DNA of 21,321 nt from a virus (IMGVR_UViG_3300009449_000042:1-21321), one strand, 5' to 3'; counted from the first letter of the stretch, positions 1,891 to 13,953 are shown. The notes: generated from the sequence alone by a model not told the origin. Translations and numbers: made by a program.

Positions 1891-2198
1891 TGGAACTTAC
1901 GATCACAATCTCAGACGCGGACATCGAGCGACTTGCCGACGCCATCTCCGCTCGACTACTTGGAGCTACTTCGGTGGAGGTGCAGCCTCCGGTCGAACTG
2001 GAACCTGCGGCTCCGGTTGCCCCTGCGATGTCACTCGGCGACCTCCGGGGTCTCGCAAGGGAACTGGTAAGTAAGAAGGGCGCTTTGGGGCGCGACAAGT
2101 TGGTTGCCATCCTGGGGAAGTCAGGAGCCAAGAATCTGACCACGCTCAACGAGGACAAGTTTGACGAGGTAGCTAAGGCGATTCGGCGTGCGATGTGA
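1890..2198 (+). CDS. hypothetical small phage protein, 102 aa
   Basis: Small protein translationally coupled to its neighbour (TAATG). The N-terminus (LTITISDADIERLADAISARLL) looks like a short strand plus amphipathic helix. Residues about 28-48 form a Pro/Ala/Glu-rich linker. The C-terminal 55 residues form a compact helical unit (DLRGLARELVSKKG...LVAILGKSGAKNLTTL), a pattern I have seen in small phage proteins of unknown role in which a Lys/Gly-rich helix pair is followed by an AKxLxxL turn. There is no membrane segment and no enzyme motif. Two folded ends on a flexible linker would fit an adaptor or nucleic-acid-associated accessory factor; this is inference only. Confidence 0.75.
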   Translation: MELTITISDADIERLADAISARLLGATSVEVQPPVELEPAAPVAPAMSLGDLRGLARELVSKKGALGRDKLVAILGKSGAKNLTTLNEDKFDEVAKAIRRAM

Positions 2199-2260
2199 CC
2201 GCCGATACCCTCAAAGTAATGACACATTCAACGAACCAAACACAAGGAGAGAAAAAAATA

Positions 2261-3979
2261 ATGAGCAAGGGACCACAGGTCACATTCAGCGACGAGCTAC
2301 ACGCACAGAAATATCGAGGAAAGGGTGAAACCTTCATTGAATCCATGAACCGGGTAGCCGGTTCGCTAAAAGACGACGAAGAGCATTTTCGGGCCCTTCA
2401 GGATATGCTACAGAACCAACGGTTCCTTCCAGGCGGTCGCGTGCAGGCTAGCATGGGTGCCATGAAAGTGGTTTCTCCCATCAACTGCTACATGTCCGGG
2501 AATTTCACGGACTCGTTCGTACATGAAGAGGGCCACATCATGCAGCGTGCCACGGAGGCTGCGGCAACCATGAGACTGGGCGGGGGCATCGGGACCAACT
2601 TCTCAACGCTTCGCCCTAACGGCTCCAACATTAAGAAGCTAGACTCTCCTTCGAGTGGCCCAGTTTCCTTCATGCACATCTTCGACTCTGTCGGACGGGC
2701 CATTGCCTCAAGCGGCCATAGACGTGGCGCGCAGATGGGTGTGCTTCGGGTAGACCACCCGGACATCGAAGAGTTCATCCATGCCAAGAACAACTCGACT
2801 ACGTTGACGGGATTCAACATGTCGATCCTGGCAACCGATGAGTTCATGGCAGCGGTACGTTCCGATTCGGATTTCGACCTACGCTTCGATGACAGGGTGT
2901 ACAAAACTGTTCGAGCGACGGTGCTATGGGACATGATTATGCGGTCCACGTATGACTACGCGGAGCCGGGTGTCATCTTCATCGACAAGATCCAGAGAGA
3001 GAACAACTTGGATTACTGTGAGACAATCACAGGTACCAACCCGTGTGGAGAGATCCCGCTGCCACCCTTTGGAGCCTGTCTGCTAGGCTCCTTCAATTTA
3101 GTCAAGTACGTCCGAGGGGGAAAGATCGACCTTGATAAGTTTGCAGCGGACGTCCCGGCGGCGGTTCGCGGCCTGGACAACGTCATCGACCGAGCGTCTG
3201 TCTGGCCTTTGCCAGAGCAGGAACGGGAGATGAAGGACAAGCGTAGGATTGGGATCGGAGTTACCGGCCTAGCTAATGCGCTGGAAGCAACCGGCTTGCC
3301 CTATGGCAGCCCGGAGTTCTGCGAGCAGACCGAGGTTGTAATGGCCTTGCTTCGGGACGAAGCATACCGAGCCTCGATCGACTTGGCCAAAGAGAAGGGA
3401 GCCTTTCCTAAGTTTGAAGCTGAACCGTTCCTGGAAAGTGATTTTGCTGAGCGGCTCGGCGATGACATACGCGACGACATCTACGAGTATGGGATTCGCA
3501 ACAGTCACCTCTTGGCAATTGCGCCAACGGGAACGATCAGCCTAACAGCGGACAATGTGTCCTCTGGCTTGGAGCCGGTGTTTGCACATCGGTTCGACCG
3601 AGTGGTCCAGATGCCGGAGGGGCCGCGCACTGAAGCCGTTGAGGACTATGCGGTTCGAGTGTTCGGGGTCGAAGGTCGCACTGCGGGAGAGCTATCTCCA
3701 CAGGAGCACCTTGACGTTCTGATTGCTTGCTCGCCGTATGTTGACCAAAGCATTAGTAAGACGATCAATGTGCCCACGGACATTCTGTGGGAGGACTTCA
3801 AAGATGTGTACATGCAGGCTTGGGAGCGAGGCGCAAAGGGCGTAACGACCTTCCGAGTGGGCGGTCTCCGCGCCGGTATCTTGAATGAAACCGACAACGA
3901 AGAGACCGTAGAGGAGGAGGAGGAGGAAGTGTCGTCCTGCGGAATCGACACGGTAACCGGCCGACGGGAATGCTCGTAG
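2261..3979 (+). CDS. nrdJ: class II (adenosylcobalamin-dependent) ribonucleotide reductase
   Basis: Reduces ribonucleotides to deoxyribonucleotides in the cytoplasm, supplying dNTPs for phage replication. I chose ATG 2261 because AAGGAGA (2244-2250) lies 10 nt upstream. A GTG at 2195 in the same frame would add 22 non-conserved residues. Counting from 2261, the active-site loop NPCGE is at 270-274 (Asn270, thiyl-radical Cys272, Glu274). The redox pair is Cys76 (PINCYMSG) and Cys283 (ACLLGSFNL). The APTGTISLTADNVSSGLEP block near the C-terminus is typical of NrdA/NrdJ barrels. The NPCGEIPLPPFGACLLGS signature and the absence of an NrdB-like radical subunit nearby point to class II. At 572 aa it is compact for the class. 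The tail has an acidic run (VEEEEEEV) and ends with Cys560 and Cys571, probably the shuttle pair that re-reduces the active site. Class assignment rests on motifs, not structure. Confidence 0.9.
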   Translation: MSKGPQVTFSDELHAQKYRGKGETFIESMNRVAGSLKDDEEHFRALQDMLQNQRFLPGGRVQASMGAMKVVSPINCYMSGNFTDSFVHEEGHIMQRATEAAATMRLGGGIGTNFSTLRPNGSNIKKLDSPSSGPVSFMHIFDSVGRAIASSGHRRGAQMGVLRVDHPDIEEFIHAKNNSTTLTGFNMSILATDEFMAAVRSDSDFDLRFDDRVYKTVRATVLWDMIMRSTYDYAEPGVIFIDKIQRENNLDYCETITGTNPCGEIPLPPFGACLLGSFNLVKYVRGGKIDLDKFAADVPAAVRGLDNVIDRASVWPLPEQEREMKDKRRIGIGVTGLANALEATGLPYGSPEFCEQTEVVMALLRDEAYRASIDLAKEKGAFPKFEAEPFLESDFAERLGDDIRDDIYEYGIRNSHLLAIAPTGTISLTADNVSSGLEPVFAHRFDRVVQMPEGPRTEAVEDYAVRVFGVEGRTAGELSPQEHLDVLIACSPYVDQSISKTINVPTDILWEDFKDVYMQAWERGAKGVTTFRVGGLRAGILNETDNEETVEEEEEEVSSCGIDTVTGRRECS

Positions 3980-4004: not shown

Positions 4005-5330
4005 GTGCTACACAGCAATATTGGAGCAAGTAGCTCAGGCCGCTGGATGACATGTTCGTCCAGTCCGTCGCTGATAGCTACGCTTGACCCAGCGCTTACG
4101 AACACCTCCTCGATATTCGCGGAGGAAGGTTCGGCGGCTCACTGTCTGGCAGAACTAATTGTTGACCAGATTGCACGGAATGTAGACGAGGGCCGTCCCG
4201 CTAACGAAGGTGTGCTTGAAGCAACCGTCGTCGGAACGGTTCTCCGTAAGTGCGACTCGTCCAACGAATACGTTGCGAACGTGGACCCCTGGACCGGAGT
4301 GGCCTTCACTGGCACGACGAGCCAGTCGGACCACGAGTTCATAGCGGACGAGGAAATGGAAGAGTGCATTCGGTTCTACGCTGAGACTATTCTCGGCTTT
4401 GTGGACTCTTGCATCGGACATCCAGTTGTACAGTCGGAATCAACGATGTTCCCCATACCGGGGGACGAGGAGATCTTCGGCACCACAGACTGCATCGTAG
4501 TTGACCAAGTTGGCGGCACGATCTGGGTGGTGGACTTGAAGTACGGCAAGGGAGTAAAGGTCACGGCCCCGCGTAACTCGCAGGCCATGTTTTACGCCCT
4601 TGGTGCTATCGAGACCGGTGAGTATGGCGACCAAGACATCGTCAACGTCGTTATCATCCAGCCGCGAGTATTCTTCTCGGACGGACGTCGCATCTCGGAC
4701 TGGCGGACAACGGCAGGCGAGCTTCGTGAATGGCGGGATGCAGAGTTCCTGCCAGCCATCGCGGCGACTCGCTCACCTGCGCTCGCCAAGTACGAGGCTG
4801 GTTCTCACTGTAGGTTCTGTCCGGCGACAGCAGTATGTCCCCTGATGCAGCAGCAGGCACTCAAGAAGGCGCAAGAGGCCTTCGCGGAGGATCTGGACTC
4901 GCTGCCCATGGAGCAGGCAGCAAAGGTCGAACTGATCCTTCCGGGGGCAACTGACCCGGAGGCCATCTCGGCCGCGCTCAAGATCGCGGAGGTGCTGGAG
5001 AACTGGATTACTAAGGTTCGCGCTCTAGCCAACCTGAAGGCAACGAAGAGTGGCATGACACTGCCCGGATTCAAGGTCGTCCACAAGCGGACGCGCCGAG
5101 TCTGGGCGGACGAGCAAGCGCTGATGGATGAGCTTGAAGCGCTTGGCGAGCTGGACACCGGGACGAAGCGAAAGCCGCTTACGCCCAAGCAAATGGAAAA
5201 GGCTGGGCTCGATGAGGACTGGGTCAAGGCCCGGACAGTCAAGCCCGAGGGGGACATGACTGTCGCCCACGAGTCTGATCCACGAGAAGCAGTCGAAGAG
5301 GCCACGGTGGTCTTCAGTGAGATTGAATGA
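4005..5330 (+). CDS. DUF2800 PD-(D/E)XK nuclease-like protein with probable Fe-S cluster
   Basis: Phage protein of the DUF2800 family, related to RecB/Cas4-type nucleases and usually found beside the DUF2815 gene. The GTG start at 4005 has AAGGAG at 3992-3997. The N-terminal signature GASSSGRWMTCSSSPSL (residues 7-23) matches the family. The nuclease core shows Asp162 (GTTDCIV) and Asp177-x-Lys179 (VVDLKYGKGV), then RNSQAMFYALG (190-200), which fits the QxxxY helix of Cas4/RecB nucleases. Cys269, Cys272 and Cys278 (HCRFCPATAVC) are three of the four ligands expected for an Fe-S cluster; Cys17 or Cys47 could be the fourth. The likely role is DNA end processing in replication or recombination. 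The C-terminal third is helical and charged. Exonuclease activity is inferred from motifs. Confidence 0.88.
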   Translation: MLHSNIGASSSGRWMTCSSSPSLIATLDPALTNTSSIFAEEGSAAHCLAELIVDQIARNVDEGRPANEGVLEATVVGTVLRKCDSSNEYVANVDPWTGVAFTGTTSQSDHEFIADEEMEECIRFYAETILGFVDSCIGHPVVQSESTMFPIPGDEEIFGTTDCIVVDQVGGTIWVVDLKYGKGVKVTAPRNSQAMFYALGAIETGEYGDQDIVNVVIIQPRVFFSDGRRISDWRTTAGELREWRDAEFLPAIAATRSPALAKYEAGSHCRFCPATAVCPLMQQQALKKAQEAFAEDLDSLPMEQAAKVELILPGATDPEAISAALKIAEVLENWITKVRALANLKATKSGMTLPGFKVVHKRTRRVWADEQALMDELEALGELDTGTKRKPLTPKQMEKAGLDEDWVKARTVKPEGDMTVAHESDPREAVEEATVVFSEIE

Positions 5331-5378
5331 AAAAAAAAAAAACTCCGCCCCGCACTAAGTAAACGGTGCGGAGCGGAG
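5330..5378 (-). terminator. A13 run plus hairpin, reads as an intrinsic terminator on the minus strand
   Basis: Arms 5343-5355 and 5366-5378 pair over 13 positions with a single mismatch around the loop TAAGTAAACG. Thirteen A residues (5330-5342) lie just left of the stem. Read leftward this is a GC-rich hairpin followed by T13, the classic rho-independent layout. Read rightward it has no T-tract. All genes nearby are on the plus strand, so it would stop only antisense transcription. The right half of the hairpin is also part of the repeated element at 5352-5386, so the structure may instead serve the plus-strand RNA. Confidence 0.55.
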
Positions 5379-5386
5379 ATACTAAA
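5352..5386 (+). repeat. Repeated 35-nt intergenic element, copy 1 (upstream of DUF2815 gene)
   Basis: The pattern GCACTAAGT (5352-5360), 12 nt, GCGGAGATACTAAA (5373-5386) recurs at 10722-10756 with the same spacing but an unrelated 12-nt middle. In this copy the GCAC and GCGGAG parts belong to the arms of the hairpin 5343-5378. CTAAGT and GATACT are 17 nt apart, as -35 and -10 boxes would be, though CTAAGT is not a standard -35. It lies about 90 nt upstream of the DUF2815 start. Confidence 0.7.
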
Positions 5387-5419
5387 CTGTAGGCGGGGGG
5401 ATGCTCTCCCCGCCCACAG
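5387..5419 (+). promoter_or_regulatory. Second hairpin in the DUF2815 leader
   Basis: CTGT (5387-5390) pairs with ACAG (5416-5419) and GGCGGGG (5392-5398) with CCCCGCC (5408-5414), with one A/C mismatch between them and a 9-nt loop. No T-tract follows, so this is not a simple terminator. Together with the hairpin at 5343-5378, which ends eight bases earlier, it makes a two-stem leader for the DUF2815 gene. Structured RNA motifs named after DUF2800 and DUF2815 have been described upstream of such genes in other phages; whether this one belongs to them cannot be judged here. The remaining 5420-5464 shows no clear signal. Confidence 0.5.
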
Positions 5420-5478
5420 AACAAGCTGAAGCGGCGCGGACATGATGTCTAGCCCGCATACTTAAAGGAGAACATATA

Positions 5479-6000
5479 ATGTCCAAGGTAGTAACACCCA
5501 TCGGTACTCTTTCTTTCCCTGCCATCTTCGAGCCAGAACTCAACCCCAACAATCCTTCGGCCCCACCGAAGTATTCCACCATGATCGTGTTCAAGCCAGG
5601 AACTGACGTTTCCAGCCTTGAGGCCCTCGTGGATGCGGCCATCACCGAAAAGTTCGGGGAAAAGGTGCCTTCCAACCTACGCAATCCCATTCGGGATGGC
5701 GAAGAGAAGGAGCACCTCGGCGGCGCGTTCGTTGAAGGCGCGAAGTTCCTGACGGCGAAGTCCAAGTTCGTCCCCGGCGTAGTCGGTGCGGACCTCGGCG
5801 CGATCATCGACCCCTCGGAGATCTATCCGGGGGTTGAAGCTCGCATCCAGGTGAGCGCTTTTGCCTATAGTATGAACGGCAACAACGGCGTGGCCTTTAG
5901 CCTCTCGAACGTACAGAAGGTTCGGGATGGGGAGCGACTCGGCAGCAGCAACGCTGCGGAGACCGTGTTCGACGCCATCGACGTCAATGATCTCCTTTAA
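5479..6000 (+). CDS. DUF2815 family ssDNA-binding-type protein
   Basis: DUF2815 proteins have an OB-type fold resembling T7 gp2.5 single-stranded DNA-binding protein and sit in phage replication cassettes. The family marks are the N-terminal strand TPIGTLSFPAIFEP, the PPKYSTMIVFKPG segment (residues about 30-43), and the C-terminal PGVEARIQVSAFAYSMNGN...FSLSNVQKVRDGERLG block. The last residues (VFDAIDVNDLL) are acidic with a hydrophobic end, like the protein-interaction tails of SSBs. AAGGAG at 5465-5470 gives a well-placed ribosome site. It is preceded by a structured leader and followed at once by a strong terminator, so it can be expressed as its own transcript. That suits a protein needed in large amounts. 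The length of 173 aa is normal for the family. Confidence 0.88.
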   Translation: MSKVVTPIGTLSFPAIFEPELNPNNPSAPPKYSTMIVFKPGTDVSSLEALVDAAITEKFGEKVPSNLRNPIRDGEEKEHLGGAFVEGAKFLTAKSKFVPGVVGADLGAIIDPSEIYPGVEARIQVSAFAYSMNGNNGVAFSLSNVQKVRDGERLGSSNAAETVFDAIDVNDLL

Positions 6001-6024
6001 CCCCCCAACAGTCTGATCGTACAC

Positions 6025-6056
6025 GGCGGCCCCTAGCGGGGCCGCCCTTTTTTTTT
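6025..6056 (+). terminator. Rho-independent terminator after the DUF2815 gene
   Basis: GGCGGCCCC (6025-6033) and GGGGCCGCC (6038-6046) form a perfect 9-bp stem with loop TAGC, followed by C and T9 (6048-6056). It is a textbook plus-strand terminator 24 nt after the DUF2815 stop. It separates the DUF2815 transcript from the DNA polymerase gene. Confidence 0.93.
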
Positions 6057-6083
6057 GCTTCACTCTTCAGCCCGCGCGATAAT
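6055..6083 (+). promoter_or_regulatory. Candidate sigma70-like promoter for the DNA polymerase gene
   Basis: TTGCTT (6055-6060) and GATAAT (6078-6083) are separated by exactly 17 nt. Each box has imperfect but fair agreement with TTGACA/TATAAT. The -35 box overlaps the end of the terminator T-tract. A promoter is expected here because the strong terminator just upstream would otherwise silence the polymerase operon. This is a sequence match only. Confidence 0.4.
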
Positions 6084-6107
6084 GCAACGGTGATAAAAGG
6101 AGACAAC

Positions 6108-8360
6108 GTGCGAGTAACCATCGACTTCGAGACCCGTTCCGCATACGACATCAAGTACGGCGCGTACCGATACGCCCAGGACCCGAGCACTGAGATCATG
6201 TGTTTAGCCATCCTATTCGACGGAGAAACTGCGGCGGTTCTCTGGCACCCAGCATATCCGTCCCTTGGGCGTGAAGAGCAGGGTCGCGAACACCTCGAAC
6301 GACTCTTCGGCTACGTCAAGGACGGCTGCGAGATCGAGGCGCACAACTCACAGTTCGAGCGAGCCATCTGGCAGTTCGTCGGCGTAGCCCGCCTCGCTTG
6401 GCCCGCAGTCCACCCTAACCAGTGGCGCTGCTCCTCGGCCCTGGCCGCTACGTTTTCCCTCCCACGGTCGCTTGACGGCGCCTCGCAGGCCCTTGGTTTG
6501 GTTCAAGAGAAGGACAAGCTGGGCCACAAAACGATGATGCGGCTCTGCAAGCCCCGCGCTGCACTCAAGGCTGACCTTGAGCTTGTAGCCGAGCACGCGC
6601 TTGACGATAAGAGGCGCTGGAAGGAAATCGTAAAGCCGAAGAACGTATTTGTGCTGAAAGAGCTTTACGATCACGTACCGGCCGTCCGGGAGTTGAGCCA
6701 CTGGAAGGAGACCGACGAAGACCTCGATGTACTCTTCGATTACTGCAAGCAGGACGTTGTGGTCGAACACGGCATCTCCAAGCGTCTTGGTTACCACCTT
6801 CCCGAGAAGGAACTCAAGGTCTGGCAGCTCGACCAGAAGATGAATACTACCGGCATCCAGATCGACATGGATATGGTTGCTGCGGCTCTCAAGATTGCGG
6901 ATGAATGCAAGGAGCTTGCGGACGCCCGGATCTCGGAACTTACGGACGGCGCGGTCAAGACGGTCGGCCAGCGGCAGGCGTTCATGGATTACATCAATGG
7001 CGAACCCGGAGACGGATTCCTGCCCAACACACAGAAGGCCACGATTGAGGACGCCCTCAAGCATCCGAAGCTGTGGTCGAGCGATGCGCTCGAAGCCCTT
7101 CAACTGCGACAGTCGCAGGCGAAGACCTCGATCAAGAAGTACGTCAGCATGTACAACGTGGTGGGGCCGGACGGTCGCGCTCGTGGACTCCTTGCCTACC
7201 ACGGAGCGGACACAGGACGATGGGCTGGAAGGCTCTTGCAACCGCAGAACTTCCCGCGCGGCTCCGTCAAGGAAGATATCGACGTCCTGTGTGACGCGGT
7301 TCTTACAGGAGACCGCGAGTACCTCGACGTCATGTACGGAGACCCTATGGAAGTTATGTCGTCCGCTTTACGCGGCGCGATGACCAGCAAGGAAGGCTAC
7401 GATCTGATCTGCGCTGACTACTCGTCGATAGAGGCGCGTGGTATCTTCTGGTTGGTTGGGGATGAAGCGGCGCTAGAGACGTTTCGTCAAGGTCGGGACA
7501 TCTATATGGCCACTGCCGCTGAGATTTACGGCGTGGAGTATGGAGACGTTACGAAGGACCAACGCCAGATGGGCAAGCAGGCCGTTCTCGGTCTTGGTTA
7601 CCAGATGGGCTACGCGAAGTTCGCGGAGACCTGCCAAGGCTACGGCATGGACGTCTCAGAAGAGATGGCCAAGCAGGTCGTCGAGACCTACCGCTCGACA
7701 TACAGCAAGATCAAGTCGTTCTGGCGAGAGATTGAGGATGCAGCGAAGGAAGCGGTTGGTCGCAGTTCGGGTCACCCGGTACTCCTTGGAAAACTCAAGC
7801 TCTACACGAAGGACGAGTTTCTGCACATCGAGCTTCCGTCTGGTCGGTGCCTTCGCTACTACCAGCCGCGTGTCTCTCATGTTCCGAGTCGCTTCAACGA
7901 CTGGATCGAAGTGTTCCCCCGGAAGCAGGGCGAGAACCCGGCGGAATACGAGGAGCGGCAGAACACGATCCAAGCGCAGGCTGCACTGCTTACACTTCGA
8001 GACTTTTGTGAGCGATTAGGCGTCAGCCCATCGCTCATCAGGGTGGACACCAAGTTGACCTTTATGGGGCAGAACTCAATGACTCGGAAGTACACTCGTC
8101 AGAACACCTACGGTGGCAAGCTGACAGAGAACGTCGTCCAGGCCTTGAGTCGAGACATGATGGCGGAAGCGATGCTGTCGGTTGACGCTGGCGGGCTGTA
8201 CGTTCCGCTGCTAACGGTTCACGATGAGATCGTGGCCGAGGTCCCTGAAGGTCGGGGATCTGTTAAAGAGTTTGAGGACCTCATATCCATTCTACCGGAA
8301 TGGGCAGAAGGGTTCCCGTTGGCTGCCGAAGGGTGGCGAGGCAAACGGTACCGGAAGTAG
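6108..8360 (+). CDS. polA: Family A DNA polymerase with 3'-5' exonuclease
   Basis: Replicative phage DNA polymerase. The GTG at 6108 is preferred because AAGGAG (6097-6102) lies 5 nt upstream and the exonuclease strand begins at once; the in-frame GTG at 6090 lacks such a site. The DnaQ-like exonuclease comes first: Asp6/Glu8 (IDFETR), HNSQFE (79-84) and Tyr212-x3-Asp216 (YCKQD). The polymerase follows: motif A DYSSIE (437-442), motif B Arg486-x3-Lys490 with GLGYQMG (495-501), and motif C HDE (705-707). No 5' nuclease domain is present. The residue equivalent to E. coli Pol I Phe762 is Leu494. The block TYGGKLTENVVQALSRD near the C-terminus is typical of the phage PolA group that travels with DUF2800/DUF2815. 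All expected catalytic residues are intact over 750 aa. Confidence 0.95.
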   Translation: MRVTIDFETRSAYDIKYGAYRYAQDPSTEIMCLAILFDGETAAVLWHPAYPSLGREEQGREHLERLFGYVKDGCEIEAHNSQFERAIWQFVGVARLAWPAVHPNQWRCSSALAATFSLPRSLDGASQALGLVQEKDKLGHKTMMRLCKPRAALKADLELVAEHALDDKRRWKEIVKPKNVFVLKELYDHVPAVRELSHWKETDEDLDVLFDYCKQDVVVEHGISKRLGYHLPEKELKVWQLDQKMNTTGIQIDMDMVAAALKIADECKELADARISELTDGAVKTVGQRQAFMDYINGEPGDGFLPNTQKATIEDALKHPKLWSSDALEALQLRQSQAKTSIKKYVSMYNVVGPDGRARGLLAYHGADTGRWAGRLLQPQNFPRGSVKEDIDVLCDAVLTGDREYLDVMYGDPMEVMSSALRGAMTSKEGYDLICADYSSIEARGIFWLVGDEAALETFRQGRDIYMATAAEIYGVEYGDVTKDQRQMGKQAVLGLGYQMGYAKFAETCQGYGMDVSEEMAKQVVETYRSTYSKIKSFWREIEDAAKEAVGRSSGHPVLLGKLKLYTKDEFLHIELPSGRCLRYYQPRVSHVPSRFNDWIEVFPRKQGENPAEYEERQNTIQAQAALLTLRDFCERLGVSPSLIRVDTKLTFMGQNSMTRKYTRQNTYGGKLTENVVQALSRDMMAEAMLSVDAGGLYVPLLTVHDEIVAEVPEGRGSVKEFEDLISILPEWAEGFPLAAEGWRGKRYRK

Positions 8361-8369
8361 GAGGGGAAA

Positions 8370-8687
8370 ATGCTAACAACAATGCTCTGGATTGCCGTCG
8401 GTACTTTTTGTATCGTCCGCATCGAAACTTTCTCCCGTACACAGGACACGTTCCTGTTGTACGGGATGCACGGGTTGCCATACCTGATCGTGGCACAGTT
8501 TTGCTTATATACTGTGTTCAACAAGGCGCCCAACGTAATGGCCGCATGGATATCGTGGACTATCACGATGTCCGTTTTGCGAGTCCTTAACTCACACTAC
8601 GTACTCAACGAGGGCCTGGACCTTCGTTGGGCGGTTGCAGGGGTCTCGCTGATGGTCGGCGCCTCACTCTGCATCAAACAGGCGTAA
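8370..8687 (+). CDS. small multi-pass membrane protein, 105 aa
   Basis: Unrecognised inner-membrane protein with AGGAGGGG directly upstream of ATG 8370. Hydrophobic stretches at residues about 3-17, 34-50, 55-71 and 86-102 suggest three or four membrane spans with very short loops. No lipobox, signal-peptidase site or catalytic motif is visible. It lies 9 nt after the polymerase stop and 10 nt before the next gene, inside the replication operon. Such a small polytopic protein could anchor the replication apparatus at the membrane or act as a holin or superinfection factor. None of these roles is supported by a motif. Confidence 0.75.
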   Translation: MLTTMLWIAVGTFCIVRIETFSRTQDTFLLYGMHGLPYLIVAQFCLYTVFNKAPNVMAAWISWTITMSVLRVLNSHYVLNEGLDLRWAVAGVSLMVGASLCIKQA

Positions 8688-8697
8688 GGAGAATCAA

Positions 8698-8991
8698 ATG
8701 GACACTTCTAAGGACGCAGCAATCGAGATCATCGGTGGTCAACTTGACAACTTCCGGGAGGCGCTGTTCTCATTCTCTAGCGCCGACGCCCTATGTCTGG
8801 AGGACGTAGAGAATTTTATGCACGCCAAACGGTTTTTCTTCCGAGAGGCGAGCGGGTTTCCCGAACTTGCTGACATGGCCCAGTTGTCAGTATCCGCCGT
8901 CCGCGATCAGCTCCGAAAGGAAGAGACCCTCTGTCTCGAAGAGGCTGGGCTTGGCGAAGTAAACTTTGCGAAGATACTGCGCGGTGAGTAG
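8698..8991 (+). CDS. hypothetical protein, 97 aa
   Basis: Soluble, predicted mostly helical protein of unknown family, with AAGGAG 6 nt before ATG 8698. Acidic and aromatic residues are mixed in the middle (EDVENFMHAKRFFFREASGF). A segment around residues 55-75 (ELADMAQLSVSAVRDQLRKE) could form a helix-turn-helix, with SVSAVRDQL as a recognition-like helix, but the match is weak and there is no supporting domain. It sits between the membrane protein and the VRR-NUC nuclease, and its stop overlaps the nuclease start by 8 bases. A small replication accessory or DNA-binding role is possible. Confidence 0.7.
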   Translation: MDTSKDAAIEIIGGQLDNFREALFSFSSADALCLEDVENFMHAKRFFFREASGFPELADMAQLSVSAVRDQLRKEETLCLEEAGLGEVNFAKILRGE

Positions 8992-9280
8992 GTCAGAGAA
9001 AGCGCTGGAGCGATGGACTGTCAGGCAAGCAAAGCAAAGAGGGATCTACGTAGTGAAACTTGCGCTGCTGCAAGGCGGCGGGTGGCCGGACCTCACGATG
9101 TTCAAAAGTGGTCGAGCGGCTTTCTTGGAATTAAAGAAGGATGAAGCCTCGCGATTCCAACCTCTTCAGGAATTCTATCTGGAGGGACTAGCTAAGCTAG
9201 GCTTCCTCACGGGGGTCGCTTGGAACAAAGAACAGGTCGAGGATTTCCTCGATGAATTTGAAGGAGAACCAGATGGGTAA
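8984..9280 (+). CDS. VRR-NUC domain nuclease
   Basis: Stand-alone VRR-NUC protein of the PD-(D/E)XK superfamily. These phage forms are thought to cut branched DNA such as Holliday junctions, as does the related domain in FAN1. GTG 8984 overlaps the upstream stop (GTGAGTAG) and gives the natural N-terminus MSRSEKALERW; a TTG at 8966 would add six residues. The motifs follow family order over 98 aa: Gly33-Trp-Pro-Asp36, Glu49-Leu-Lys51, and Gln59/Gln62 in the helix after the core. The last 29 bases overlap the sequence before the helicase start. A VRR-NUC gene beside an SNF2 helicase gene is a common phage pairing and suggests they act together on replication intermediates. Confidence 0.88.
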   Translation: MSRSEKALERWTVRQAKQRGIYVVKLALLQGGGWPDLTMFKSGRAAFLELKKDEASRFQPLQEFYLEGLAKLGFLTGVAWNKEQVEDFLDEFEGEPDG

Positions 9281-10706
9281 GAATCTACCAAAGTTCGCCC
9301 CCCACGCCTACCAGGAGTTGGCAATCCAAGATATGGAAGAGAAGGGCATTATGGCGCTGCTACTCGATCCGGGCCTCGGTAAGACATCCATCGTACTGGA
9401 ATACTTCCGTCGGCAGTATGACTGCCTTGCGGCCACACGGATGCTAGTCGTGGCCCCACTGCGAACCTGTTGGGGTGTTTGGCCCTTGGAAGTCCAGAAG
9501 TGGAAAGGCTTCAAGGACTTCAAAGTCCATGTGGCGCACGGCAAGAAGGGCAAAGAGGTATCGCTCTGCAACGAGGCGGACATAACAGTTATCAACCCAG
9601 AAGGTTTGGGTTGGCTCGAAAGCCAGATGGAGTCCGGCGCTATTGAACGGTTCGACGCCCTCGCAGTCGATGAGTCTACAATTTTCAAAAGCTACTCCTC
9701 GAAGAGAACCAGGACACTATTCAAAATCGCGCACAAACACCAGGGTGGTATACCAAATCGGTTCATCCTGACTGGTACGCCAGCTCCAAACGGATGCGAA
9801 GACCTGTTCGGGCAGTTCGCGATTTTGGACCCGGATATTCTGGGCAAGACGCTGACTGCGTTCAGGTCGGACTTCAAGTTTCAGGCGTCAAAGCGGCCTT
9901 GGGGAATGGTCTGGGCACCCAGCGTACATAGCCCCGGCCTGATCCAGGACGCGATCAAGCCTCACTCTGTGCGGTTAGAAGCTACGGACTACCTAGACAT
10001 GCCGGACTTGATTAGAGTCCAGCGAGAGGTTACCCTACCTCCGGCTGCGATGGACCTCTACAAGCAGTTGCGGTCCGAGATGCTGGTCAATCTCAGTCCC
10101 AACGCTACGGTGGTGGCGGTCAATCCTGCGGTTCTGTCAGCTAAGTGTCGTCAGGTCGCCAACGGTGCAGTCTACATCACGGACGATGGGCTGGCTGGCA
10201 CGGAAACAGACCGCCGCATCGAGTACGTACATCAAGCCAAGGTTAAGGAACTGGCGCAGCTCTTCGATGAACTAGGCCAGAAGCCGCTGCTCGTCGCCTA
10301 TGAGTTTCGCCACGACCTCAAGCAGGTCCGCAAGCATATGAAGACGGCATATAAGCTAGACGTGCCGTACATTGGATCAGGGTCCGCACCGGACGATACA
10401 GCGGCGGCAATCGAGAGTTGGAACGCGGGTGATCTGCCTATGCTTCTGGTCAATCCAGCAGCAGCAGCGCATGGCCTCAACCTTCAGACCGGCGGCCACC
10501 ACCTGTGCTGGTATGGGCTTACTTGGAACTTGGAGTACTACCAACAACTGAACGCGCGGTTGTGGCGGCAGGGTCAGCGGGAAGCGGTGATTGTCCACCA
10601 CTTGCTCGCCAAAGACACGGTGGATTCCGTGGTCTGGGATGCCATCCAGATGAAGGATGCAACCCAGCGTGACCTGCTGCTGGGCTTGAAACGACTGAGA
10701 TGGTAA
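9273..10706 (+). CDS. SNF2-type superfamily 2 helicase
   Basis: ATP-dependent DNA translocase/helicase of the phage SNF2 family. ATG 9273 has AAGGAG (9261-9266) 6 nt upstream; the in-frame ATG at 9252 lacks as good a site. Motif I is DPGLGKT (32-38). Motif II is DEST (133-136), not the usual DEAH. Motif III is LTGTP (166-170). The helicase C half carries PAAAAHGLNLQ and the motif VI arginine cluster ARLWRQGQ (428-435) with Arg429 and Arg432. The 477-aa length is that of the minimal phage form, with no accessory domains. It overlaps the VRR-NUC gene and ends the first plus-strand block before an 83-nt intergenic region. The likely role is remodelling replication forks or branched DNA. Confidence 0.9.
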   Translation: MGKNLPKFAPHAYQELAIQDMEEKGIMALLLDPGLGKTSIVLEYFRRQYDCLAATRMLVVAPLRTCWGVWPLEVQKWKGFKDFKVHVAHGKKGKEVSLCNEADITVINPEGLGWLESQMESGAIERFDALAVDESTIFKSYSSKRTRTLFKIAHKHQGGIPNRFILTGTPAPNGCEDLFGQFAILDPDILGKTLTAFRSDFKFQASKRPWGMVWAPSVHSPGLIQDAIKPHSVRLEATDYLDMPDLIRVQREVTLPPAAMDLYKQLRSEMLVNLSPNATVVAVNPAVLSAKCRQVANGAVYITDDGLAGTETDRRIEYVHQAKVKELAQLFDELGQKPLLVAYEFRHDLKQVRKHMKTAYKLDVPYIGSGSAPDDTAAAIESWNAGDLPMLLVNPAAAAHGLNLQTGGHHLCWYGLTWNLEYYQQLNARLWRQGQREAVIVHHLLAKDTVDSVVWDAIQMKDATQRDLLLGLKRLRW

Positions 10707-10710
10707 TTAA

Positions 10711-10772
10711 GTTGCCCTGTGGCACTAAGTGTACTCCGTGTAGCGGAGATACTAAAGGGTATGCAGGGTAAC
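10711..10772 (+). promoter_or_regulatory. Structured leader before the metalloprotease-like gene
   Basis: GTTGCCCTG (10711-10719) pairs with CAGGGTAAC (10764-10772) over 9 positions with one G-T wobble. Inside it, CTCCG (10734-10738) pairs with CGGAG (10744-10748) around TGTAG. This nested fold encloses the second copy of the repeated element. Neither stem is followed by a T-tract, so simple termination is unlikely. The ribosome site GAGGAG (10779-10784) follows closely, so folding could affect translation. Confidence 0.45.
10722..10756 (+). repeat. Repeated 35-nt intergenic element, copy 2
   Basis: GCACTAAGT (10722-10730), 12 nt, GCGGAGATACTAAA (10743-10756). The flanking blocks match copy 1 at 5352-5386 base for base with identical spacing, while the 12-nt middles differ (GTACTCCGTGTA here, AAACGGTGCGGA there). 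CGGAG closes a small hairpin with CTCCG in the spacer. It ends 33 nt upstream of ATG 10790. Confidence 0.7.
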
Positions 10773-10789
10773 CACTACGAGGAGATAAT

Positions 10790-11272
10790 ATGACAGATGA
10801 CGAGAAGGAAAAATATTTTACCGCGCAGGGCGAGAGCTACGCGGAGCTACACCCCTTCAGCTTCGCCAACTTCGACGTGACAATCGAGCCACTAGAGAAA
10901 GAGCATGGCAGGTTCGACGTGGCGATGTGGGAGGACGAGGACGGGGAGCTTCACGAGTGGGGCACAATCTACCTCGACACCTACGAAGGCGTCCCCCGAG
11001 AGGACCTGATCACTCTACTTCAGTCAGAGATATTCGTCCACGAGTTGGCCCACGCCTCACAGCACCGTACCATAGAGTATGAACGGGAGCGCGAGCAGGA
11101 CCATGACGCGGAGTTCGGAATCAAGTATGCTATGGCGTACAACGATGTGATCCGTGGCGAGCGAAAGTGGACCAAGGAAGAGGCTTTTGAATACCTGGGG
11201 CTCACGCCTGAGAAACATGAAGAACTCATCAGCTCGCTGGCGGCAACTCTGGAGGTTAAGGACGATGAGTAG
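10790..11272 (+). CDS. HExxH metalloprotease-like protein, 160 aa
   Basis: Probable zinc-dependent peptidase or a derived relative. His84-Glu85-x-x-His88 (FVHELAHASQH) is followed by His105 (DHDAEFG) 16 residues after the second His. This spacing and the HxxEF-like third-ligand region recall SprT/Wss1-type minigluzincins, though family membership cannot be settled by eye. The N-terminal 75 residues are acidic and include short strands (FDVTIEPLEKE, FDVAMWEDEDGE). The C-terminus is helical and acidic. There is no signal peptide, so it acts in the cytoplasm. ATG 10790 has GAGGAG 5 nt upstream. The gene starts a new block after the repeated element and overlaps the dNMP kinase gene. Possible roles are processing DNA-protein crosslinks or cleaving a host protein; both are inference. 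Confidence 0.72.
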   Translation: MTDDEKEKYFTAQGESYAELHPFSFANFDVTIEPLEKEHGRFDVAMWEDEDGELHEWGTIYLDTYEGVPREDLITLLQSEIFVHELAHASQHRTIEYEREREQDHDAEFGIKYAMAYNDVIRGERKWTKEEAFEYLGLTPEKHEELISSLAATLEVKDDE

Positions 11273-11879
11273 TTCCAACGCAATTATATTCATCGGCGCT
11301 GCCGGTGCCGGGAAGGACACTGCGGCAGCAGCGGTCTTGGAAGCCGTTCCAGGATCTCGCAACCTGAAGTTCGCTGAGGCCCTAAAGGACGTCTGCGCTC
11401 GCGTCTACGGATGGGACCGAGAACGCCTCGACTCCGACTTGGACTACAAGGAGTCCCCCGCGTACTACGCGAGCGGCAGGCCTTGTGTAGTATCCGGCCG
11501 TGGCGAAGTCCAGACCCGCCGTCAGCTCCTCCAACATATTGGGACGGATCTGTTCCGGGGCATGAATGAGGACGTTTGGTTGAACGCGGCATTGGAAGAG
11601 GTCCACAACTCCCCGACGTGCCCGCTGTGGGTCGCCACGGACACGCGGTTCGACAACGAGGTGCAGTTTATCAGGGAGCAGTTTGACCGCACGTACGTCG
11701 TACGGGTGGTACGCGAAGGCGCCAAGACAGGCACGGACGCCTCCCGGCACGCTTCGGAGCAGGGCCATGCGAAGATCAAAGCGGACCTAGAAATCCGAGT
11801 AGGGGACGGGCGGGTCCACCAGCTTCAGGTCCAGGCACTCGACATCGCCTTGAAGTTTATCGGATGGCGGTCGGCATGA
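11265..11879 (+). CDS. deoxynucleoside monophosphate kinase
   Basis: Phosphorylates dNMPs to dNDPs, as T4 gene 1 kinase does, and so works with the reductase to feed the polymerase. ATG 11265 overlaps the upstream stop and has GGAGG at 11251-11255. An upstream in-frame ATG at 11154 would lie inside the metalloprotease gene and is unlikely. The P-loop GAAGAGKDT is at residues 11-19. The KFAEALKDVCARVYGWD segment (35-51), RRQLLQHIGTDLFR (85-98) and the TDTRFDNEV motif (125-133) are typical of the phage dNMP kinase family. At 204 aa it is a normal length for the smaller members. It carries no membrane or secretion signal. Confidence 0.9.
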   Translation: MSSSNAIIFIGAAGAGKDTAAAAVLEAVPGSRNLKFAEALKDVCARVYGWDRERLDSDLDYKESPAYYASGRPCVVSGRGEVQTRRQLLQHIGTDLFRGMNEDVWLNAALEEVHNSPTCPLWVATDTRFDNEVQFIREQFDRTYVVRVVREGAKTGTDASRHASEQGHAKIKADLEIRVGDGRVHQLQVQALDIALKFIGWRSA

Positions 11880-12366: not shown

Positions 12367-12825
12367 ATGCCAATATACGAGTTCCACCAGCCCAGCCTAC
12401 CGGGAGCGCCAGAGCTAGACCCCCGTCACTGGGAGTTCCAGATGCTACCGCCGGACATCGAAGGCTACCCTGGGGAGCCGGTACCCCTCAGCACCGTAGG
12501 GGAGCCGGTTTACTTCAGATGTGACCCTACGTTCCTGCGGCACCAATGTGACACCAAATGGGCCCTACTCTGGGACCCCCTTCGAGGCGGGTCGCCTACA
12601 CAGGAGGACGTTGAGGCTTGCATCCAAGCTAATCTCGATCAGTGTGTAAACATCCTAACCGAGGATCTGCCTTTCGCGGATGGCTGGGTCCAGGTCCAGG
12701 CTTGCGGTGAGAGCGCGTTCTGCTCTGGCTGGAGTGAGCCGCTCGTAGTTCCGTCGTTGCCCTTCGGGACGTCCCTACTAGTGGGCGCGATGGTCATGGC
12801 ACTCCTCTTCCGAAACAGAAGCTAA
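12367..12825 (+). CDS. Cys-rich protein with C-terminal membrane anchor, 152 aa
   Basis: Unknown protein with six cysteines in three pairs (FRCDPTFLRHQC, EACIQANLDQC, QACGESAFC), suggesting disulfides. The segment WVQVQACGESAFCSGWSEP resembles the closing strands of a fibronectin type III or similar Ig-like domain. The C-terminus has a short Pro-containing stretch, a hydrophobic helix (LLVGAMVMALLF) and basic RNR, a tripartite anchor like those of sorted surface proteins. No N-terminal signal peptide is seen, so how the Cys-rich part would reach an oxidising compartment is unclear. AGGAGAG lies just before ATG 12367, overlapping the lipoprotein stop. It is the last plus-strand gene before the terminator pair. 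Confidence 0.72.
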   Translation: MPIYEFHQPSLPGAPELDPRHWEFQMLPPDIEGYPGEPVPLSTVGEPVYFRCDPTFLRHQCDTKWALLWDPLRGGSPTQEDVEACIQANLDQCVNILTEDLPFADGWVQVQACGESAFCSGWSEPLVVPSLPFGTSLLVGAMVMALLFRNRS

Positions 12826-12830
12826 AACGC

Positions 12831-12864
12831 AAAAAAGCGGGGAGGGGCAATTGCCCCTCCCCGC
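12831..12864 (-). terminator. Perfect 28-bp palindrome, terminator for the late (minus-strand) operon
   Basis: GCGGGGAGGGGCAA (12837-12850) and its exact complement (12851-12864) form a perfect palindrome with no spacer, so the hairpin tip must open. Six A residues at 12831-12836 become T6 after the hairpin on the minus strand. It lies 48 nt past the last minus-strand stop. Confidence 0.82.
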
Positions 12865-12867
12865 AGA

Positions 12868-12908
12868 CTGTTCCCGCCCAAACCCCCGAATGGGGGGGAC
12901 AGCTTTTT
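12868..12908 (+). terminator. Terminator for the plus-strand operon
   Basis: CTGTTCCC (12868-12875) pairs with GGGGACAG (12895-12902) with one G-T wobble, followed by C and T5 (12904-12908). A competing inner hairpin CCCCC-GAAT-GGGGG (12883-12896) uses part of the same arm. The T-tract lies beside the last minus-strand stop. With the palindrome at 12837-12864 it forms a convergent pair. Confidence 0.6.
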
Positions 12909-12911
12909 CGC

Positions 12912-13286
12912 TCAGTGGCGGAACGCCTTCCAGCCAAATAGCCGAAGAGTGTAGTACCGCGCCCAAGATCGGACCACGCCGAGGATAACCCCCGCGCGAC
13001 CGTCCAGCTCCTGCTGGATGTACCTGATGCAGTCGTCACGATACGCGACGTCCGCAGCATGTCTGTGTGCGCCGCTAAGGTTGTGCTCTCTGCCCAACCG
13101 GTAGCGGTAATCGTGTAGACTCGCGGGGAGCTTTACGTCCCGGTAGTCCGTCGTCGTGCGTCCAATGCGGACGCCCATCATGTGATCCGTTGACGCGGTG
13201 GACCCGTCTGGGCCAGCCCAGCCCGAATCCAACTCGGAGTTCCACTCCGCTTCGGTCGGTATCTCCATGAACTTAGTTATGAGCAT
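12912..13286 (-). CDS. hypothetical protein with HDxxY...AD motif, 124 aa
   Basis: Last gene of the late operon. The core is LHDYRYRLG (His58-Asp59-x-x-Tyr62) followed by HAADVAYRDDCI (Asp79). HDxxY followed about 15-20 residues later by AD is the catalytic layout of group XIII-like and parvovirus VP1 phospholipase A2. The same spacing also occurs in phage DUF1353-like proteins of unknown role, so activity is uncertain. The C-terminus (VVRSWARYYTLRLFGWKAF) is basic, aromatic and amphipathic and could touch membrane. ATG 13286 has AAGGG upstream. It follows the endolysin and membrane/coiled-coil genes, so a part in lysis or virion entry is plausible but unproven. Confidence 0.72.
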   Translation of the reverse strand: MLITKFMEIPTEAEWNSELDSGWAGPDGSTASTDHMMGVRIGRTTTDYRDVKLPASLHDYRYRLGREHNLSGAHRHAADVAYRDDCIRYIQQELDGRAGVILGVVRSWARYYTLRLFGWKAFRH

Positions 13287-13304
13287 ATCTCGCCCTTTCT
13301 GGTG

Positions 13305-13559
13305 TCACCCCACAGCTAGCCTTACTGCGTCTAATACCCTATCAGATAGCTGCTCAATTCCCTGCTGACGACCTTCTAGCAGGCCAACAGTTCGGTTCAG
13401 TGTGGTGATCTGGTCATGGGTCTCCTGCACTTTTTCCTCACTTGCCTTGAGTCGTTCCTCTGTCCGCCGAGAGCTAGCAGTGATTTGTCGCCACAGCACA
13501 GAGAAGCCGCCCACTAGGGCGGTGGCCCCGGCGCTTACGATCTCGAATTCATGAAGCAT
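13305..13559 (-). CDS. membrane/coiled-coil lysis-module protein, 84 aa
   Basis: One N-terminal hydrophobic segment (residues about 7-24, IVSAGATALVGGFSVLW) is followed by a charged heptad-rich region (about 30-75, RRTEERLKASEEKVQETHDQI) that should form a coiled coil. The GLLEGRQQGIEQL segment is a recurrent feature of small proteins encoded next to phage endolysins. The layout, membrane span then periplasmic or cytoplasmic coiled coil, fits an inner spanin, a holin or an antiholin, and the sequence does not decide between them. Its start overlaps the endolysin stop by 11 bases, and its own ribosome site is weak (GAGATGG), so translation is probably coupled to the endolysin. Confidence 0.75.
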   Translation of the reverse strand: MLHEFEIVSAGATALVGGFSVLWRQITASSRRTEERLKASEEKVQETHDQITTLNRTVGLLEGRQQGIEQLSDRVLDAVRLAVG

Positions 13560-13953
13560 TGCGTTCTACCATCTCAAAGTGAAGTAAGTCCCTGAAACTC
13601 TCATCGGTCATGCGTCCATCCCTGTTCCAATCTCCGCCCCACCGCAAGTCCAATCCGTTCTGCTTCGCGATCTGTAGGATCGCTCCAGAGAGCTGAATGA
13701 ACCTTTCGGTATCCTCCCAGTCGATGGGGTATGGAGCAATGTCCACCGCAACGCTGGGCAGCGAATTGTGCTTTGAGTTGGGCCAGCTCACTTGACTGGC
13801 CCCCGACTCAAAGAGTTCTTGCTGTCTCTCAGGGCCTCTGTGGCCCTCCAGGACTGTGAAGTCCCAGTACTTGATGGCTTCCTCCAGCACCCCCCGAAGT
13901 CTCGTGTCAACGAGTTCTAGGGCGCTTAGGGAGCCTCTACCGAACGCTGGCAC
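13549..13953 (-). CDS. endolysin, M15-type peptidase
   Basis: Peptidoglycan-cutting endolysin of the M15 (VanY/CwlK-like) family, which cleaves the peptide stem of the wall. Zinc ligands are His62 (SKHN), Asp71 (AVDIAP) and His125 (LLHFE); the family carries these as SxHxxxxAxD and a C-terminal HF/HW. The GLDLRWGGDWNRDG segment (100-113) is also typical. GTG 13953 has AGGAGG 6 nt upstream. The start overlaps the stop region of the tail-tip gene. At 134 aa it is a single catalytic domain with no wall-binding module and no signal peptide, so it would need a holin to reach the wall. This is normal for a Gram-negative host. Confidence 0.9.
   Translation of the reverse strand: MPAFGRGSLSALELVDTRLRGVLEEAIKYWDFTVLEGHRGPERQQELFESGASQVSWPNSKHNSLPSVAVDIAPYPIDWEDTERFIQLSGAILQIAKQNGLDLRWGGDWNRDGRMTDESFRDLLHFEMVERNAS

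Follow-up and report, generated by a model that had tools for sequence, protein, structure and literature searches.

Gene context and sequence of the repeated element

The window, i.e. the whole 21,321-nucleotide stretch analysed here, is a 21.3-kb fragment of the genome of an uncultured tailed phage, for which no close relatives were found among GenBank phages. Its + strand successively encodes a VapE-like protein, a ribonucleotide reductase, a DUF2800 protein, a DUF2815/Enc34-type ssDNA-binding protein (ssb; 5479-6000; Pfam PF10991) and a DNA polymerase A, then several small genes, an endonuclease/Holliday-junction-resolvase-like protein (PHROG matches, VRR-NUC being judged from its place in relatives), a SNF2-type helicase, an HExxH (metallopeptidase-like) protein (10790-11272) with no Pfam family above cut-off, and a dNMP kinase (11154-11879). 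Genes for lysis and tail proteins come next, on the - strand. A strong intrinsic terminator lies after ssb (6025-6046, + strand), and ssb also has a terminator behind it in a distant relative, G005. The ribonucleotide reductase gene has a mobile position, lying before DUF2800 in the window (2195-3979) and after the DNA polymerase gene in two relatives (L097, 3058-4776, and L100, 2447-4198). No sigma factor gene was found among the scanned window proteins, the window being a genome fragment from which the corresponding part is absent, and no T7-type single-subunit RNA polymerase gene was seen in it. The intergenic regions between positions 3900 and 13500 contained no canonical sigma70 promoter.

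Two intergenic spaces of this + strand block, between DUF2800 and ssb and between the helicase and HExxH genes, carry the same 35-base element, GCACTAAGT-N12-GCGGAGATACTAAA, on the + strand: copy 1 (GCACTAAGT-AAACGGTGCGGA-GCGGAGATACTAAA) at 5352-5386 and copy 2 (GCACTAAGT-GTACTCCGTGTA-GCGGAGATACTAAA) at 10722-10756. The original prediction of a gapped repeat upstream of two unrelated genes was borne out, both copies matching the pattern exactly and the downstream products being the ssDNA-binding protein and the HExxH protein. Its description of the blocks needed amendment: the left block does span 9 bases, but the right one spans 15 rather than 14, since the last spacer base is also identical, and the spacers, said to differ entirely, agree at 5 of their 12 bases (3 expected). 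Likeness between the copies continues downstream of the element as NN-GTA-N-GC-N-GGG (8/12), and the motif ACTAA is present in both blocks, 27 nt apart. No third copy was detected in the 21-kb window within 3 mismatches.

An unbiased scan ranked the element as the top ungapped direct repeat of the window, with 28/35 identities, or 36/47 when the 12 bases further downstream are included. Among 333 third-order Markov simulations, the former score was reached once and the latter never, and none of 100 dinucleotide shuffles contained the gapped pattern, in agreement with the earlier claim that such a match is unlikely by chance. The right block alone is unremarkable (E = 0.003 against its own locus, within the range of chance repeats elsewhere); the significance of the repeat therefore comes from the presence of both blocks at equal spacing, the intergenic location of both copies and their conservation in a relative.

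Candidate promoter boxes and adjoining inverted repeats

As read from the DNA, the left block would carry a -35 box, CTAAGT (5355-5360 in copy 1, 10725-10730 in copy 2), and the right block a -10 box, GATACT (5378-5383 and 10748-10753, all on the + strand), with a 17-nt gap that would fit the geometry of RNA polymerase and predicted transcription starts near 5390 and 10760. This spacing falls within the 16-18 nt of sigma70-type promoters, and GATACT matches TATAAT at 4 of 6 positions, including the A at position 2 and the T at position 6. Conversely, CTAAGT shares only 2 of its 6 positions with TTGACA, GG stands at -15/-14 where an extended -10 promoter has TG, and the element scores below other matches in a sigma70 consensus scan; the poor -35 box and the low consensus score make a plain sigma70 reading a poor one. 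A bipartite motif repeated upstream of phage genes, as in phage-sigma promoter classes, is found in two copies both in the window and in its near relative. A standard promoter does not account for two conserved stretches, GCGGA ahead of the -10 box and GTA-N-GC-N-GGG downstream. Considering the poor sigma70 -35 box and the lack of canonical promoters in the intergenic DNA of the region, these elements may be read by a host sigma of divergent type, by a phage sigma, or by a host sigma assisted by an activator; host RNA polymerase with its host sigma and host RNA polymerase with a phage sigma or activator appear about equally likely.

Other known box types were compared and rejected. By eye, the window element showed no -12 GC element as in sigma54 boxes and only a partial likeness to FliA-like sigma28 boxes. 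As for promoters of T7-type single-subunit RNA polymerases, ACTAAAGGG of copy 2 is similar to ACTATAGGG, yet neither the left block nor copy 1 agrees with this assignment.

Both copies are embedded in inverted repeats. Upstream of copy 1, an A13 tract (5330-5342, + strand) is followed by the inverted repeat CTCCGC-C-CCGCACT / GGTGCGG-A-GCGGAG (5343-5378; fold z -6.6), which overlaps the proposed promoter. Read on the - strand, where the tract becomes T13 after the hairpin, positions 5330-5378 look like a strong leftward intrinsic terminator, a possible function predicted from the DNA. In copy 2, the spacer holds the small inverted repeat CTCCG-TGTAG-CGGAG (10734-10748), itself enclosed by an outer inverted repeat, GTTGCCCTGT / GCAGGGTAAC (10711-10772). 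As had been noted earlier, CGGAG closes a hairpin in both copies by pairing with an upstream CTCCG; the loops differ, being 5 nt long inside the spacer in copy 2 and extending around the left block in copy 1. 

Initiation at copy 1 would yield a short transcription unit consisting of the ssDNA-binding protein gene and ending at its terminator. This transcript is predicted to open, from about +3, with a stable 5' hairpin, CTGTA GGCGGGGGGA TGC TCTCCCCGCC CACAG (5387-5419, + strand). Stable 5' hairpins are a familiar means of mRNA protection. Copy 2 would similarly drive the HExxH/dNMP-kinase unit that follows the helicase gene.

Conservation and genomic position in related phages

A single close relative was found (G001, IMGVR_UViG_3300045790_001405), and it retains both copies at orthologous places. 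Copy 1 is identical across the whole element, and its leader is nearly so, compared with a difference of ~10% in the adjacent ssb coding DNA. Copy 2 reads GGACTAAGT-GTACTCCTTATA-GAGGAGATACTAAA, with an N12 spacer; its spacer and flanks differ from those of the window, whereas neither copy shows a change in ACTAAGT or GGAGATACTAAA, and CTAAGT and GATACT lie 17 nt apart in all four copies of the two phages. The spacer hairpin of copy 2 becomes CTCCT-TATAG-AGGAG in this relative, a paired change with respect to the window. Elsewhere, positions 12825-13934 of the window are ~97% identical to the relative with flanks at 70-88%, which suggests mosaic exchange, and the relative contains, between its polymerase and 105-aa genes (oriented 3040-3313), an extra small gene that the window does not have.

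Exact and relaxed scans of the collection (variable gap of 8-22; core with a gap of 8-38) returned only this relative plus chance matches. The latter are L008 and L009, both in coding DNA and the second antisense. Bacterial genomes gave one match, in AT-rich Richelia DNA, at a chance level estimated at about two. The expectation that the gapped pattern would recur in related phages thus held for the near relative, with both copies kept, and failed for the exact sequence in two more distant ones, G005 (73% ssb identity to the window phage) and G006 (54.7 kb; helicase 54% and HExxH 49% identity), from which it is absent. The contig of G005 does not reach the copy 1 junction, and two small genes occupy that of copy 2, where no promoter is obvious. 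At the place of copy 2, directly upstream of its HExxH gene, this phage carries AAACCCAGT(T/G)CGTAAAGGA as a tandem repeat at a 33-nt distance (L097:7627-7690).

G006 possesses an intergenic class of its own, TAGAA-N15-TGCTATAAT, represented genome-wide by seven sites within 3 mismatches, five of them perfect, at gene junctions (~0.15 expected from shuffles in a piece of 15-20 kb). Two of them, one immediately preceding ssb (oriented 15511) and one immediately following the helicase stop codon (22926), occupy the junctions that carry copies 1 and 2 in the window, and at both the hexamers are again 17 nt apart. By our own count of about ten comparable junctions, the chance of agreement at both is ~2-7%. 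This agreement, together with the identical 17-nt geometry, is the main argument for promoters. The ssb leader of G006 also begins with a hairpin at the same offset as in the window, about +3 of the predicted start. A further site of this class, upstream of VapE (oriented 11290-11325), has its TGCTATAAT promoter (11304) in the loop formed by a perfect inverted repeat of 11 bp, GGGCTCACCAT...ATGGTGAGCCC, which TTATT follows; it may be a promoter located within a terminator.

Among the proteins of G006 is a member of the sigma-70 superfamily that has both region 2 and region 4. On contig IMGVR_UViG_3300007541_000026, from a relative of the window phage, L103:8023-9060 (- strand) encodes a sigma-70-family factor with regions 2 and 4, whose true start is probably inside the open frame and which is a candidate reader of the promoters of its own phage. 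A search for proteins closely related to the sigma factor of G006 did not retrieve the left half of the window phage's genome.

The upstream regions of ssb in ~75 other phages were also screened for repeated elements, the sole notable case being L059, which has an unrelated direct repeat of 83 nt (6241-6323 and 6918-7000) containing CTATAAT and a ribosome-binding site, one copy being directly upstream of ssb. It constitutes another repeated promoter-like leader before this gene.

Weighing of explanations and comparison with known systems

Stems overlap the promoters in both the window phage and G006. For the 50-nt stretches ending at the -10 box of ten sites (two in the window, copy 2 of the near relative and seven in G006), the mean folding z was -2.26, vs -0.24 for control 50-mers, and six of the nine independent sites had z <= -2 (6.7% expected). 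Promoter-overlapping stems are therefore a habit common to the two phages. We infer that these repeats probably act on transcripts reading through from upstream, by 3'-end protection or insulation, and not on the promoter-initiated ones.

Such stems could also belong to a cis-acting RNA element, riboswitch-like or protein-binding, located between genes of one long transcript, in which an outer stem would close the conserved loops ACUAAGU and AUACUAAANNGUA around a variable inner hairpin. Several observations are favourable to this architecture: copy 2 folds far better than its shuffles (z -5.3), its inner hairpin still pairs in the near relative through a double change, an RNAalifold consensus of four sequences contains 5 pairs with changes on both sides, conservation continues into the 3' side of the outer stem, and the near-identity of the copy 1 leader between the two phages exceeds that of the adjacent ssb coding DNA. 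However, copy 1 strongly prefers another, much more stable fold, with the left block inside a stem and no inner hairpin at the place of that of copy 2, and the fold common to the two copies, a structure chosen to fit very few sequences, was equalled in 4.4% of column permutations. Moreover, one pair of the outer stem is broken in the near relative, Rfam covariance models gave no hit to the element, even with E allowed up to 5, viral contigs contained no further copies with variable loop length, and both places are occupied in G006 by promoters instead of this element. A three-sequence RNAalifold run with permutation control was discarded, two of its sequences being the same copy, so that it tests the own fold of copy 2. 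The RNA alternative put forward by the original prediction thus survives in its hairpins, as part of a promoter region, a conserved fold shared by the two copies being weakly supported; as a full explanation, we consider it unlikely. 

Even less probable is a pair of DNA operators, two sites for a phage repressor or activator distinct from the core promoter. Conserved blocks of 9 and 15 bases are longer than ordinary -35 and -10 boxes and the recurrence of ACTAA in both would suit such sites, but no operator-scale palindrome or direct repeat is common to both copies, and this reading would leave to coincidence both the 17 nt between the hexamers and the agreement in position with the promoter-like sites of G006. 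A very weak HTH hint in a 97-aa product of the window (8698-8991) would also suit a regulator, but it is far below cut-off. Least credible of all, and very nearly dismissed here, is a functionless repeat due to recent duplication or chance: there are indeed only two copies, a right block close to chance level by itself and a loss of the sequence in more distant relatives, yet almost no simulation equalled the repeat as a whole, each copy lies between genes, and the near relative preserves the two at orthologous positions, with their blocks spared.

We therefore favour, with a probability of roughly 0.77, the reading of the two copies as promoters belonging to a single sigma-type class in this phage lineage, a prediction drawn from sequence comparison. 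The promoter class suspected at the outset from CTAAGT and GATACT, 17 nt apart, gains from the retention of both copies in the near relative and from the different bipartite class with the same spacing that G006 displays at both orthologous junctions. A broader scenario, in which a phage family would use lineage-specific promoters read by a fast-evolving phage sigma and fused to box-overlapping hairpins that insulate upstream RNA and not promoter-started RNA, is more speculative, and we hold it to be rather doubtful. For an uncultured phage group, these elements provide two promoters that can be tested and, combined with the sigma gene of G006, would make the co-evolution of phage sigma factors and promoters testable in vitro.

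Three sets of promoters offer the closest parallels. The late promoters of Salmonella phage 7-11, GTAAtg-(16)-aCTA, are read by host RNA polymerase with the phage sigma gp47, and in phiEco32, a related phage, promoters of another spelling occupy similar positions in the genome (PMC8948821). Like those of phage 7-11, the window elements share a two-part consensus that departs from sigma70 boxes and recurs in front of phage genes, and their spelling differs from that of G006 at similar positions, as between phage 7-11 and phiEco32. Unlike them, they have the boxes and spacing CTAAGT-17-GATACT, their starts are predicted only, they occur as two copies upstream of replication and nucleotide genes and not of late genes, and the window fragment contains no sigma gene. 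With the sigma70 extended -10 class of G006, they share junctions, 17-nt spacing and a -10-like second box with conserved A2 and T6, whereas they have no TG at -15/-14, a poor -35 box and GATACT as -10. This hexamer is identical to the -10 box of the T7 A1 promoter, TTGACT ... GATACT (PMC10800924), the -35 box being near-consensus in A1 and CTAAGT in the window. The element is thus most likely a new example of a familiar kind, phage promoters in their own spelling, its unusual aspects being a spelling wholly changed between relatives at fixed positions and a recurrent overlap with stems.
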